From contig NZ_JABAFO010000015.1 in assembly GCF_012843675.1 (NCBI RefSeq), positions 1-41,411 on the forward strand: a stretch of 41,411 nucleotides of DNA, written 5' to 3'. A program made the translations under genes and the position numbers. The DNA comes from Lactobacillus sp. MRS-253-APC-2B (GTDB lineage: Bacteria > Bacillota > Bacilli > Lactobacillales > Lactobacillaceae). This document shows, one piece after another, positions 22,246 to 29,477 of the stretch. The notes below the pieces were generated by a model. It saw only the letters and a program-made list of their open reading frames with translations, ran no database searches and was not told where the DNA came from. Within the stretch, counting starts at the first letter, position 1. Every line of letters starts with the position of its first letter.

Positions 22246-23469
22246 TTATTCCGCATTTAATTGTTGATCTAACATGACCAGCGTCTTGCGTAGCAACGGG
22301 TCATGGGCGTATAGATAGGTTCCTTTGACGCCCCGTTTTAAGATTACGTTTAGGGCATTGAGAATCATGCGCTTTTCATAATAGATGATCTGATCAGGAT
22401 CGGTCAGGTCAGCGCGTTTTTTAAAGGCTTCGGTATCGGTAAAACGATCCAGATTGACCTGCAGCTGATTGGTGTCTGGTTTTTGACTGATTACCGGTCC
22501 AATGATGATCCCGGCATAGTTGAGGTCAAATCCCTGACAAGTGTAAATCGATCCGACCTCGTCAATTGTTTCTGGCAATTCAGCCCAGGGCGTGGCAGTA
22601 AAATTATACTGATCCCATGGCATCTTAAAGCGGCCCTCGGTGATATAGTGCTTGCCGCCATCAAGCGTGGAAGGGTAGCCGGATGTGGAAAGAATGCGTG
22701 AAAGACCAACTTCTTGATTGCGCTTGACGATGGTCTGGCGCATCAGTTCGGCATCGTCAAAAATTCGGAAGTCGTAATGCTCACGGGCGTTTTTGGGTAG
22801 TGGCTTGATTTGACCATCAGTCAGATTATTGAACCAGTCGATCAATTCATCAGAAGCCGTCATCCGAAACTGGTGCTTGAGCCGATAGCTTTGGTGTGGA
22901 TAAGGGGCAACCAGCTCATTTAAGCGATCCAGCGTCCAAAAGCTCTTCATGCGCAGCACTTGGTAGGGATCAAAGACCAAAATTACGACTTTGGCGCGTT
23001 TGATGATCTCCACCAGCTGATTCTCATGATAAAAATTGTTGTAGTGATCTGGCTTGCTCAACAATAGATGGGCCTCATCGATTACAACGATATCGGAAGT
23101 TTCATCGCGCTTATCCAGCTGATTGATAAACGTGGTCGGCCGCTGATAGTCTTTTTTTAACAAGGTCTTGATCGGTCCAGTAATCTGTTTGTAGACCTTT
23201 AAGACCTCGGGATGATTGACTAAAAAATAATTATGCGTGCCATAAAAAGGACTGTCGGCTTGAATTCGCGCTGCTTTTTGAATTCCAGCAAACAGCTGTG
23301 ACAAGACGACGCTTTTTCCGGTGCCGGCATCACCCAGAATCGTATAGACGGCGGGATGATCCTGTTCGAGATGTTTCCTGGCAAAATCGATGACATCATC
23401 AACCAGTTCAGCCTGCTCATCAGTCAATTCTTTAAAAGGTGATAGTTTTTCAATGGCTTGATTTGACAA
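22246..23469 (-). CDS. DUF2075 family P-loop helicase-like ATPase
   Basis: I choose the TTG at 23469 (407 residues), six bases after GGGGGAAAG. A longer frame up to 23532 would begin inside the promoter. Walker A is ILGDAGTGKSVV and Walker B is DIVVIDEAHLLL, followed by LVFDPYQVL. The later parts YRLKHQFRM, STSGYPSTLDGG and YTCQGFDLNYAGIIIGP correspond to helicase motifs of DUF2075/Schlafen-3-like proteins (superfamily 1-type core). The cellular role is undefined; relatives turn up near nucleases and defence genes, but here the neighbour is a membrane lipid protein. It is complete and not disrupted. Confidence 0.87.
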   Translation of the reverse strand: MSNQAIEKLSPFKELTDEQAELVDDVIDFARKHLEQDHPAVYTILGDAGTGKSVVLSQLFAGIQKAARIQADSPFYGTHNYFLVNHPEVLKVYKQITGPIKTLLKKDYQRPTTFINQLDKRDETSDIVVIDEAHLLLSKPDHYNNFYHENQLVEIIKRAKVVILVFDPYQVLRMKSFWTLDRLNELVAPYPHQSYRLKHQFRMTASDELIDWFNNLTDGQIKPLPKNAREHYDFRIFDDAELMRQTIVKRNQEVGLSRILSTSGYPSTLDGGKHYITEGRFKMPWDQYNFTATPWAELPETIDEVGSIYTCQGFDLNYAGIIIGPVISQKPDTNQLQVNLDRFTDTEAFKKRADLTDPDQIIYYEKRMILNALNVILKRGVKGTYLYAHDPLLRKTLVMLDQQLNAE

Positions 23470-23510
23470 ATTTCTTTCCCCCAATTTAGGAATAATCCTA
23501 TATTTATTTA

Positions 23511-23539
23511 ATGTTACGGATCTTTTGCTCAACCGTCAA
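23511..23539 (-). promoter_or_regulatory. Promoter of the DUF2075-TVP38 unit
   Basis: Minus strand TTGACG (23534-23539), a 17-base spacer and TAACAT (23511-23516). This placement makes the TTG at 23469 the sensible start. Confidence 0.6.
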
Positions 23540-27765: not shown

Positions 27766-27794
27766 TTGCATAAATCATTTTCTAATGCTATTCT
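27766..27794 (+). promoter_or_regulatory. Promoter of the Thr/Ser attenuator transcript
   Basis: TTGCAT (27766-27771), a 17-base spacer and TATTCT (27789-27794). Transcription would begin near 27801, just before the AAGGAGG of the leader peptide. Confidence 0.65.
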
Positions 27795-27827
27795 AATAGC
27801 ATACTAAGTTTTAAGGAGGTAGCTGAG

Positions 27828-27893
27828 ATGCTAATTCGACAATTAAAGATGCACATGATTCAGCTAACCTCCACCTCAACCACAACAATCTAA
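27828..27893 (+). CDS. Thr/Ser-rich leader peptide (21 residues)
   Basis: A short ORF too small for ordinary gene finding. It has a perfect AAGGAGG ribosome site at 27813-27819, 8 bases before the ATG. The peptide starts MLIRQLKMHMIQL and ends TSTSTTTI. The codons ACC TCC ACC TCA ACC ACA ACA ATC give five threonines, two serines and an isoleucine immediately before the stop. Such a run of control codons is the hallmark of leader peptides of attenuated operons, such as thrL of E. coli. The control codons lie in the first strand of a set of competing hairpins. The next gene encodes a Thr/Ser-type permease. The peptide itself needs no function. Confidence 0.85.
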   Translation: MLIRQLKMHMIQLTSTSTTTI

Positions 27894-28011
27894 AGTGGTT
27901 GAGTTCTTCAATCTGGATATCAATAAAGCAGTTAACAGCTGATCGAATCCGCTCAACCACTTACAGAAAGTCTTAAGTGGGATTGAGATGGGTGGATTCG
28001 ATCGGCTTTTT
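27875..28011 (+). promoter_or_regulatory. Four-segment transcription attenuator upstream of a Thr/Ser permease
   Basis: Segment 1, CTCAACCAC (27875-27883), lies in the Ser-Thr-Thr codons. Segment 2, GTGGTTGAG (27895-27903), lies just after the leader stop. Segment 3, CTCAACCAC (27952-27960), is an exact copy of segment 1. Segment 4 holds AAGTGG and TTGAG (27975-27980, 27983-27987). Pairs 1:2 and 2:3 are both perfect over 9 bases. Pair 3:4 is embedded in a 10-bp perfect outer stem, GATCGAATCC (27941-27950) with GGATTCGATC (27994-28003), followed by TTTTT (28007-28011), which is the terminator. A ribosome stalled on Thr/Ser codons frees segment 2 to pair with 3 and prevents termination. Confidence 0.85.
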
Positions 28012-28040
28012 GTTTGGCTGAAAATAAAGGAGTTTTTTCT

Positions 28041-29477
28041 ATGGAACAGCAGAACAGCGGTCATCTGCGACGTTCAATGACGACGGGGCAGATGGAAATG
28101 ATAGCCATCGGTGGAACGATTGGTAGTGGTCTGTTTATGGGGGCTACTTCAACCATCAAATGGGCTGGGCCATCGGTATTGTTGGCCTATGCCCTGGTTG
28201 GTCTGGTTTTGTATGCCATGATGCGGGCCTTGGGGGAAATGATCTATCTAAATCCGGGAACGGGTTCGTTTGCCGATTACGGTACCAAATACATCAATCC
28301 ACTATCAGGCTATTTGGTTAAGTGGAGCAACGTCTTTCAGTTTATCATCGTTGGGATCTCTGACGTGATTGCCATGTCGCAGTATCTGAACTACTGGTGG
28401 CCCAACTTACCAGACTGGATCTCGGGGATCATTTTAATTGTCATCTTGACGCTGGCCAACCTGGTTTCGGCTAAGGCATATGGCTCATTGGAATTCTGGT
28501 TTGCCATGATCAAGGTCGTAACGATTATTTTGATGATCGTCGTTGGTTTAATGGTAATCGTCTTTGGTCTGGGCAATAACTGGCATCCAGTCGGCATTTC
28601 CAATCTGTGGTCGCATGGCGGCTTTTTCCCGAACGGCTGGAAAGGCTTCTTCTTCTCTTTGGCTGTGATTGCCGGTTCATATCAAGGGATTGAGCTGTTA
28701 GGGATTGCGGCTGGTGAGACGGCCTCGCCACAAAAAGCCATTGTTAAGTCAGTCAAGTCCGTAATCTGGCGGATTCTGATTTTCTATATCGGAGCTATTT
28801 TCGTAATCGTTTCGATTTATCCTTGGAATCAATTGAGTGCAGTGGGCTCGCCATTTGTGGAAACTTTTGAAAAAGTCGGAATCACTGGGGCAGCCGGTTT
28901 GATCAACTTTGTCGTTTTGACGGCCGCCATGTCAGGGGCCAATTCGGGGATTTACAGTGCCAGCCGGATGCTGTTTAAGCTGTCGGTTGATCATGAGGTC
29001 TCTCCGTTTTTCTCCAAGCTGTCTAAGCGCGTCGTGCCAAACGTGGCGATTTTGACGATTGCTGGCTGGATTCTGGTTGGCTTTGTGCTTAACACGATTC
29101 TGACCCAGATGAGCAAAACGGCTTCCAATCTGTTTGTCATCGTCTACAGTGCCTCAGTGTTGCCGGGGATGGTGCCATGGTTCGTTATTTTGATTTCTGA
29201 GCTGCACTTTAGAAAACAAAATCCCAACCTGATGGAGAATCATCCATTCAAGATGCCACTGTTCCCGCTCTACAACTACTTTGCTACGGCGGCATTGCTG
29301 CTGATCCTGGCCTTTATGTTTATCAATCCGGATACGCGCATCTCGGTTTCTGTTGGGGTGATCTTCTTGGTAATCATGTCAATCATCTACTTCGTGCGCG
29401 TTCGTAAGCATGAGGAACCAGAAGCTAGTGAAGAAACGGAATTTGAAAACGAGCATCATTTAAATCGTCATAAATAA
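28041..29477 (+). CDS. Threonine/serine permease, YifK (ThrP)-like, AAP family
   Basis: The ATG at 28041 follows AAAGGAG (478 residues); an upstream in-frame start lies in the attenuator. There are 12 predicted helices. Signature segments of the amino-acid permease family are MEMIAIGGTIGSGLFMGATSTIKWAGPSVLLAYALVG, WFAMIKVVTIILMIVVGL and YSASVLPGMVPWFVILISEL. From memory of the E. coli proteins, the closest resemblance is to YifK (ThrP), a threonine/serine transporter: shared GLFMGA.ST.KWAGPSVLLAY, WRILIFY.GAIFVIV.I.PWN and TAAMSG.NSG.YS. Substrate by homology alone would be moderate, but the Thr/Ser leader peptide upstream points independently to the same substrates. Confidence 0.9.
   Translation: MEQQNSGHLRRSMTTGQMEMIAIGGTIGSGLFMGATSTIKWAGPSVLLAYALVGLVLYAMMRALGEMIYLNPGTGSFADYGTKYINPLSGYLVKWSNVFQFIIVGISDVIAMSQYLNYWWPNLPDWISGIILIVILTLANLVSAKAYGSLEFWFAMIKVVTIILMIVVGLMVIVFGLGNNWHPVGISNLWSHGGFFPNGWKGFFFSLAVIAGSYQGIELLGIAAGETASPQKAIVKSVKSVIWRILIFYIGAIFVIVSIYPWNQLSAVGSPFVETFEKVGITGAAGLINFVVLTAAMSGANSGIYSASRMLFKLSVDHEVSPFFSKLSKRVVPNVAILTIAGWILVGFVLNTILTQMSKTASNLFVIVYSASVLPGMVPWFVILISELHFRKQNPNLMENHPFKMPLFPLYNYFATAALLLILAFMFINPDTRISVSVGVIFLVIMSIIYFVRVRKHEEPEASEETEFENEHHLNRHK

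Follow-up and report, generated by a model that had tools for sequence, protein, structure and literature searches.

A predicted ribosome-mediated threonine attenuator upstream of a ThrP/YifK-like permease gene in Lactobacillaceae

The 41,411 nucleotide stretch of DNA analyzed here (the window), which is part of a 1.98 Mb genome (G000), carries a short leader ORF with a run of threonine codons, two alternative pairings visible as complementarity between three segments, and an intrinsic terminator, all lying ahead of an APC-superfamily permease gene and conserved in related genomes. We consider it very probable (roughly 0.9) that this leader is a ribosome-mediated transcription attenuator that senses the charging of tRNA-Thr and controls an importer of threonine, probably also of serine. 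A reading of the sequence alone had called the region a classical leader-peptide attenuator, and the anatomy, the conserved Thr codons and pairing segments, and the match between codons and cargo all support that view.

Anatomy of the leader and proposed mechanism

The features of the locus are listed in Table 1. A letter by letter check confirmed the ribosome site, the 21-codon ORF ending in TSTSTTTI, the identity of segments 1 and 3 over 9 nt, the exact complement within segment 2, and the 3:4 terminator with its 10 bp perfect outer stem and U tract, as the sequence-only reading had described them. The ORF is short and, judged by its sequence, appears translatable, with a codon run for a single amino acid. 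It is the sole Thr/Ser-rich ORF (at least seven Thr/Ser within eight residues) among the 10 distinct SD-preceded ATG ORFs of 10-45 codons in the window, and 100 dinucleotide shuffles of the window yielded 1913 such SD-preceded ORFs, none of them as Thr/Ser-rich.

Table 1. Features of the leader and permease locus in the window, and T-boxes upstream of permease homologues
Feature	Position or locus	Strand	Remarks
-35-like hexamer TTGCAT, 17 nt before TATTCT	27766-27771	+	by eye; similar sequence in relatives by eye
Three 11-bp-phased direct repeats TTCTAATGCTA/TTCTAATAGCA/TACTAAG	27780-27808	+	overlap the -10-like TATTCT (27789-27794)
Shine-Dalgarno (SD) AAGGAGG of leader ORF	27813-27819	+	letter by letter check
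Leader peptide ORF MLIRQLKMHMIQLTSTSTTTI, 21 codons + TAA	27828-27893	+	ATG 27828, TAA 27891-27893, C-terminus ...LTSTSTTTI
Control codon run ACC TCC ACC TCA ACC ACA ACA (five Thr, two Ser)	27867-27887	+	sequence
Segment 1 CTCAACCAC	27875-27883	+	inside leader ORF
Segment 2 AAGTGGTTGAG	27893-27903	+	contains exact complement GTGGTTGAG; complementary to segment 1 or segment 3
Intrinsic terminator hairpin (segments 3:4)	27937-28007	+	-38.0 kcal/mol as folded; T-rich tract to 28015
Segment 3 CTCAACCACTT	27952-27962	+	in 5' arm of terminator; 9 nt identical to segment 1
Shine-Dalgarno AAAGGAG of permease gene	28026-28032	+	sequence
APC-superfamily permease (ThrP/YifK-like)	28041-29477	+	best NCBIfam model ThrP
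Thr T-boxes before permease homologues	L162, L164 (above gathering score), L171, L175 (below)	permease strand	genera g30, g19

The perfect outer stem of the terminator pairs GATCGAATCC (27941-27950) with GGATTCGATC (27994-28003) and is followed by TTTTTGTTT; the predicted outer stem extends to 19 bp when G-U pairs are included, and 33 nt separate the end of the terminator from the permease ATG. Folding energies were well below those of shuffled sequences, with MFE z-scores of -6.4 for 27811-28020 and -6.0 for 27893-28015, and the duplex energies of the window's leader were reached by 2 of 100 shuffles for 1:2 and by none of 100 for 2:3. Complementarity and folding together predict mutually exclusive 1:2, 2:3 and 3:4 hairpins, with the terminator at 3:4. 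A consensus scan for promoters and terminators, which covered loops of 3-8 nt only and promoter matches of at least 9/12, listed no element of this locus.

With the usual ribosome footprint, a ribosome stalled where the Thr codons begin would cover segment 1, while a ribosome at the stop codon 27891-27893 would cover segment 2. Transcription would probably start about a dozen nucleotides before the SD. When Thr-tRNA is ample, the ribosome would reach the stop codon abutting segment 2 and cover that segment, so that segments 3 and 4 could pair and transcription would end before the permease gene. When Thr-tRNA is short, the ribosome would stall in the run starting at 27867 and cover segment 1, so that segment 2 could pair with segment 3 instead; with terminator formation thus precluded, the permease gene would be transcribed. 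On a leader without a ribosome, 1:2 and 3:4 would form and transcription would end. The ORF continues through segment 2 in many relatives, and the same outcome is expected for them. From these sequences we infer the stalling, termination and readthrough in cells as well as the substrate of the permease.

The best-scoring model for the permease was ThrP (NF047867) at 563.8 bits, which is below the curated cut-off of 850 and marks the protein as a homologue only, so that its substrate is one that we infer. The description of the gene as a YifK-like Thr/Ser permease with a cargo matching the codons therefore stands as far as homology by best model goes, and falls short of the curated cut-off; with that qualification, the codon run appears to match the function of the downstream gene. 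The available text of PMC10070963 gives threonine, and to a lesser extent serine, as the cargo of E. coli YifK. The closest relatives of the window's permease are those of G027 (95%) and G003 (94%).

The SD region of the leader (27813-27826) is also complementary to its own control codons (27861-27873), and the SD can pair with CAGCTAACCTCC (27861-27872). Across the Thr leaders described below this pairing was better in native than in swapped combinations (-12.80 vs -10.67; printed p of 0.0000 with 20000 permutations), and in the Ser leaders native pairs were no better than swapped ones (p 0.94). A synonymous-codon control gave weak results, with a median rank of 48 of 200 and only 5 of 32 leaders in the best 5%. 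In view of this and of the outcome in the Ser leaders, a conserved helix of this kind was rejected, and the holding of the SD by the control codons is regarded as a possible feature only.

Conservation of the leader and its pairing segments

All 50 genus genomes searched had permease matches. One group of these was 73-100% identical, another, of paralogues, was at about 67%, and the rest were more distant permeases. An SD-preceded Thr-run leader was present at 41 of the 45 orthologue loci (73-100% group) whose upstream DNA was read; the four loci without it were L005 (degenerate), L027 (no intergenic sequence), L069 and L070, and the G040 orthologue, which starts at a contig end, was omitted from the count. 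An SD-preceded short ORF with five Thr/Ser in eight residues was found at none of the 25 paralogue loci (L071-L095). At loci L027, L084 and L382 of G034 the gene directly follows the previous stop and the intergenic DNA is missing, which looks like an oddity of assembly and not biology. The N-terminus and the length of the leader peptide vary among relatives and the Thr run stays, being kept in new surroundings in divergent leaders such as MKWMQLVAGQSTTTTTATQMQ and MLINLKSTEVLSSTTTRKF. Limosilactobacillus mucosae DSM 13345 carries the same leader as L003.

Beyond the genus, 221 of 301 family genomes searched gave permease matches at E<=1e-150, and an ORF scan of the other-genus upstream regions detected the Thr leader in 20 of 60 (genera g22, g18, g24, g13, g8 and g5). 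An RNA model built from 39 leaders (R1; 103 positions, 6 base pairs) added one other-genus leader (G066) that the ORF scan had overlooked on account of its GGTGG SD, and further leaders may likewise escape such a scan. The leader also occurs in Lentilactobacillus kosonis. Altogether it is present in the window's genus and six further Lactobacillaceae genera, and the conservation of leader codons and pairing segments that had been set beforehand as a test of the attenuator was found. The control that the sequence-only reading had placed in "a lactobacillus" is indeed present in the window, and is not peculiar to one lactobacillus, as it extends over seven genera. Larger samples, which mix the family with an unspecified share of other genomes and were searched with R1 under stricter filters, with which weak distant cases could be missed, gave matches in 8 of 295 genomes order-wide (74 genera), all in the window's family, and in 1 of 250 class-wide (106 genera), namely the window itself. 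A scan of genome contigs returned 103 stretches, of which 80 were named; the permease lay downstream of 30 of these, all in Lactobacillaceae, while the other 50 lacked it and look like chance. Among the remaining 23 stretches, 14 had the permease downstream. The pattern ACCTCAACCACAAC alone was noisy across the family (23 of 396 genomes): ten places outside the genus were read (L032-L039, L053 and L054) and were coding-like by eye except L039, as was L055, a second place in one genus genome.

Pairing was analyzed in 69 Thr leaders, many of them close relatives, consisting of 41 from the genus, 20 from other genera and 8 from named records. This set was curated by hand: an extra L175 ORF was dropped, L205, L207, L231 and L255 were added, and L021 was corrected. 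Mean duplex energies over the 69 leaders were -14.7 for 1:2 against -8.1 in shuffles (6.6 kcal/mol better) and -17.8 for 2:3 against -12.1 (5.7 better). No more than 5 of 100 shuffles were as good in 50 of 69 leaders for 1:2 and in 46 of 69 for 2:3, so that 19 and 23 leaders, respectively, missed that mark. When 2:3 partners were swapped among 21 diverse leaders, native pairs were better than permuted ones (-16.72 vs -14.10, p 0.00015), with several natives ranking poorly, L067 and L121 most clearly; no convincing 2:3 pairing was found in these two, and it was weak in L160.

Covariation was looked for in both stems and was seen in one. When 39 leaders were aligned with MAFFT, the 1:2 helix was paired in 95.2% of cells vs 93.9% in shuffles, and double-sided changes were present in three of its eight pairs (in four cells), a number reached by 2 of 500 shuffles. 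The 2:3 helix was paired in 99.3% of cells within the genus, where 32 of the 41 leaders were aligned and nine more divergent ones omitted; its changes were all single-sided (G-U) and no measure exceeded the shuffle control, so that this count adds conservation and no covariation.

A second leader set with serine codons

The R1 matches also included further leaders, which form a second set and precede a different APC permease. Of 20 R1 places read, 15 belonged to this second attenuator (E 3e-7 to 0.018), one (L366) was a decayed Thr-type locus, and L363, L367, L368 and L372 look like chance. The second permease is 22-28% identical to that of the window (tblastn), has the L-type transporter TIGR00911 as its best model, below cut-off, and matches PDB 6F2G (BasC) with a phmmer value of 2.5e-90. 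BasC is an alanine-serine-cysteine exchanger according to the accessible part of PMC6472337. A BasC-like protein was found in 48 of 50 genus genomes at E<=1e-90, and 28 of the best 30 genus loci have an intact Ser-run leader (e.g. SSSSASSS), all 28 with more Ser than Thr codons; the other two are L382, which has no intergenic DNA, and the frameshifted L386. At L386 (G036) the reading frame was lost through a small deletion and the pairing segments are kept, making it a natural broken leader.

The window's own genome has such a leader, MTLHYFKLHQSSSSASI, followed by a terminator and a BasC-like permease gene (G000:C1:282251-283582; L392). Like the Thr version, the Ser attenuator consists of a promoter-like repeat (diverged in L392), an SD, a CTCA-type segment 1, a GGCTGAG or AGTTGAG segment 2, a terminator and an APC permease; unlike it, the run codes for serine and the cargo is BasC-like. 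Two importers in one cell seem to be under translated attenuators whose codon runs match their cargo. Duplexes of the Ser leaders were equalled by at most 5 of 100 shuffles in 25 of 28 cases for 1:2 and 24 of 28 for 2:3. The pairing core is altered on both sides between the two sets. It reads CTCAACC:GGTTGAG in 37 of 69 Thr leaders; of the 28 Ser leaders, 18 have CTCAGCC:GGCTGAG and three have CTCAGCT:AGTTGAG. The partner taken for this comparison was the best one no more than 48 nt away, and the anchor lay on another CTCA in four Ser leaders.

Both loci also share the promoter-like element. The repeat pattern TTCTAATNNTATTCTAAT had 42 exact places in 32 of the 50 genus genomes, and a reversed control pattern none. 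All 42 places lie 150-257 nt before a matched permease start (23 Thr-type and 19 Ser-type), and since the pattern was derived from these loci, the point is its sharing by two distantly related genes and not its absence elsewhere. With one mismatch a few other places were found as well, in five genomes, and the Ser locus of G000 has the pattern only in diverged form. The shared repeat speaks for descent of both loci from one ancestor or for control of both by one regulator, and the 11-bp repeats may be the operator of a regulator.

We lean, by a modest degree, towards the view that these leaders form a re-codable attenuator family of the Lactobacillaceae, in which one ancestral module (11-bp-repeat promoter, leader and terminator) was placed ahead of two permeases that are only distantly related, and a change of the codon run converted it between Thr and Ser specificity, in whichever direction, with the pairing chassis kept by compensating changes. 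Within this reading, homologous genes in a neighbouring clade have a Thr T-box in the same role. In lactobacilli, T-boxes are thought to account for most RNA-level sensing of amino acids. We know of no earlier serine-specific leader-peptide attenuator, so that such a family would include the first. The Thr and Ser leaders would provide a natural codon-swap pair for testing what sets the specificity of an attenuator, and would hint at what two permeases transport in a genus to which many probiotic strains belong.

Known systems and the amino acid sensed

The attenuator of the thr operon in enterobacteria (thrL; Rfam family Thr_leader, RF00506) likewise has a short Thr-rich leader ORF, alternative hairpins and an intrinsic terminator; it differs in serving a biosynthetic operon, where the present leader serves a permease, and in belonging to a different phylum. 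The window's leader had no Rfam match at gathering score, including Thr_leader and the T-box (RF00230), and at E<=1 nothing was found on the + strand, only a minus-strand RybB hit of 19.9 bits that is below the gathering score of 40. Leader-peptide attenuation within Bacillota is described, in the portions of these articles that were available, for S. aureus ilvD with mutant evidence, Lactococcus and Streptococcus being cited as predictions (PMC5794164), and for a branched-chain amino acid (BCAA) attenuator in Listeria (PMC5864092); these have Leu-rich peptides and biosynthetic operons, and the present leader has Thr codons and an importer. His leader peptides are reported for Bacillus hisS*/hisZ (PMC2965389) and for his operons (excerpts of PMC9413887), and are likewise Firmicutes leaders where a T-box serves elsewhere, although in another amino acid, other genes and other taxa; the same excerpts of PMC9413887 list T-boxes, and not attenuators, for the his genes of Lactobacillales. 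With BCAA and His genes already providing examples of leader-peptide attenuation in Gram-positive bacteria, there is no novelty in the principle as such. As the sequence-only reading had surmised for a transport gene in a lactobacillus, no account of leader-peptide attenuators for Thr or Ser in Lactobacillaceae was found in the accessible text of the open-licence literature. As far as this search extends, the novelty lies in the attenuator family, in its importer cargo and in the pairing of Thr and Ser versions on a common chassis.

The 69 Thr leaders, which are not independent of each other, contain 445 Thr codons (3-9 per leader; ACC 254, ACA 136, ACT 42 and ACG 13) vs 190 Ser codons (1-6 per leader). 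Within the best nine-codon window, 67 of the 69 leaders have more Thr than Ser and the other two have equal numbers, a result favoured by the requirement of at least three Thr for entry into the set. Serine codons are nevertheless present throughout, two of them in the window's run, and mixed Thr/Ser runs occur in Weissella before the second (BasC-like) permease, which would fit a joint sensor, with a shortage of either Thr or Ser leading to ribosome stalling and permease expression, as might suit a Thr/Ser carrier. We regard such a joint sensor as rather unlikely given the predominance of Thr, the separate Ser-run attenuator in the same genome (L392), the Thr specifier in the T-boxes of four homologues, and the near-invariant Ser codon TCA, which in the window, too, sits where the pairing sequence CTCAACC of segment 1 demands it. 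Of the Thr/Ser control codons proposed from sequence alone, those for Thr appear to give the main signal.

The opposite extreme, that the Thr/Ser run is a by-product of selection for C-rich segments 1 and 3, with the ORF coupling general translation to termination and having no amino-acid specificity, would account for a core CTCAACC that is nearly invariant as DNA and from which ACC and TCA codons follow. It appears highly improbable, however, as the runs are built of Thr codons with mixed third bases, the divergent leaders L057 and L067 keep Thr runs in other sequence, and the sister attenuator keeps the pairing yet has Ser codons.

The T-box, like the proposed threonine attenuator, senses tRNA charging, and unlike it binds tRNA directly and has no translated leader. 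Using Rfam, we scanned 40 other-genus loci that had no leader in the ORF scan (G066 included) and found a T-box on the permease strand in only four (Table 1); that of L144, on the strand opposite to the permease, was not counted. The specifier, read by the rule GAA, about one base, codon, purine, is ACU (Thr) in all four, and the rule agrees with the T-boxes before valS, hisS, asnA, pheS, metA and ileS (genes recognised by eye) in the window's own genome. That genome has 29 T-box matches at E<=0.001, 8 of them above the gathering score and none at this locus. A Thr T-box before a SteT homologue is also reported in the B. cereus group, in the available extract of PMC2494555. In a quick permease tree of 110 rows with a midpoint root, the four T-box homologues fall in a nine-row group (split support 99), and the other 101 rows hold all 55 leader rows along with nested leaderless paralogues (G066 being labelled leaderless). 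T-boxes and leaders before homologous genes would offer a natural exchange of the two devices. The excess of Thr over Ser codons, the Thr T-boxes on homologues and the sister Ser attenuator all point to threonine as the probable signal of the window's leader.

It is hardly credible that the small ORF encodes a functional micropeptide and that the hairpin is the ordinary terminator of an upstream proBA operon, even with proB and proA directly upstream and a strong terminator, since the peptide is conserved neither in its length nor in its N-terminal residues, the upstream coding end differs between relatives (by eye), and the leader has its own promoter-like element ahead. A C69 dipeptidase gene lies downstream of the locus, and a minus-strand protein encoded at 22246-23532 of the window has a Schlafen group 3 DNA/RNA helicase domain.
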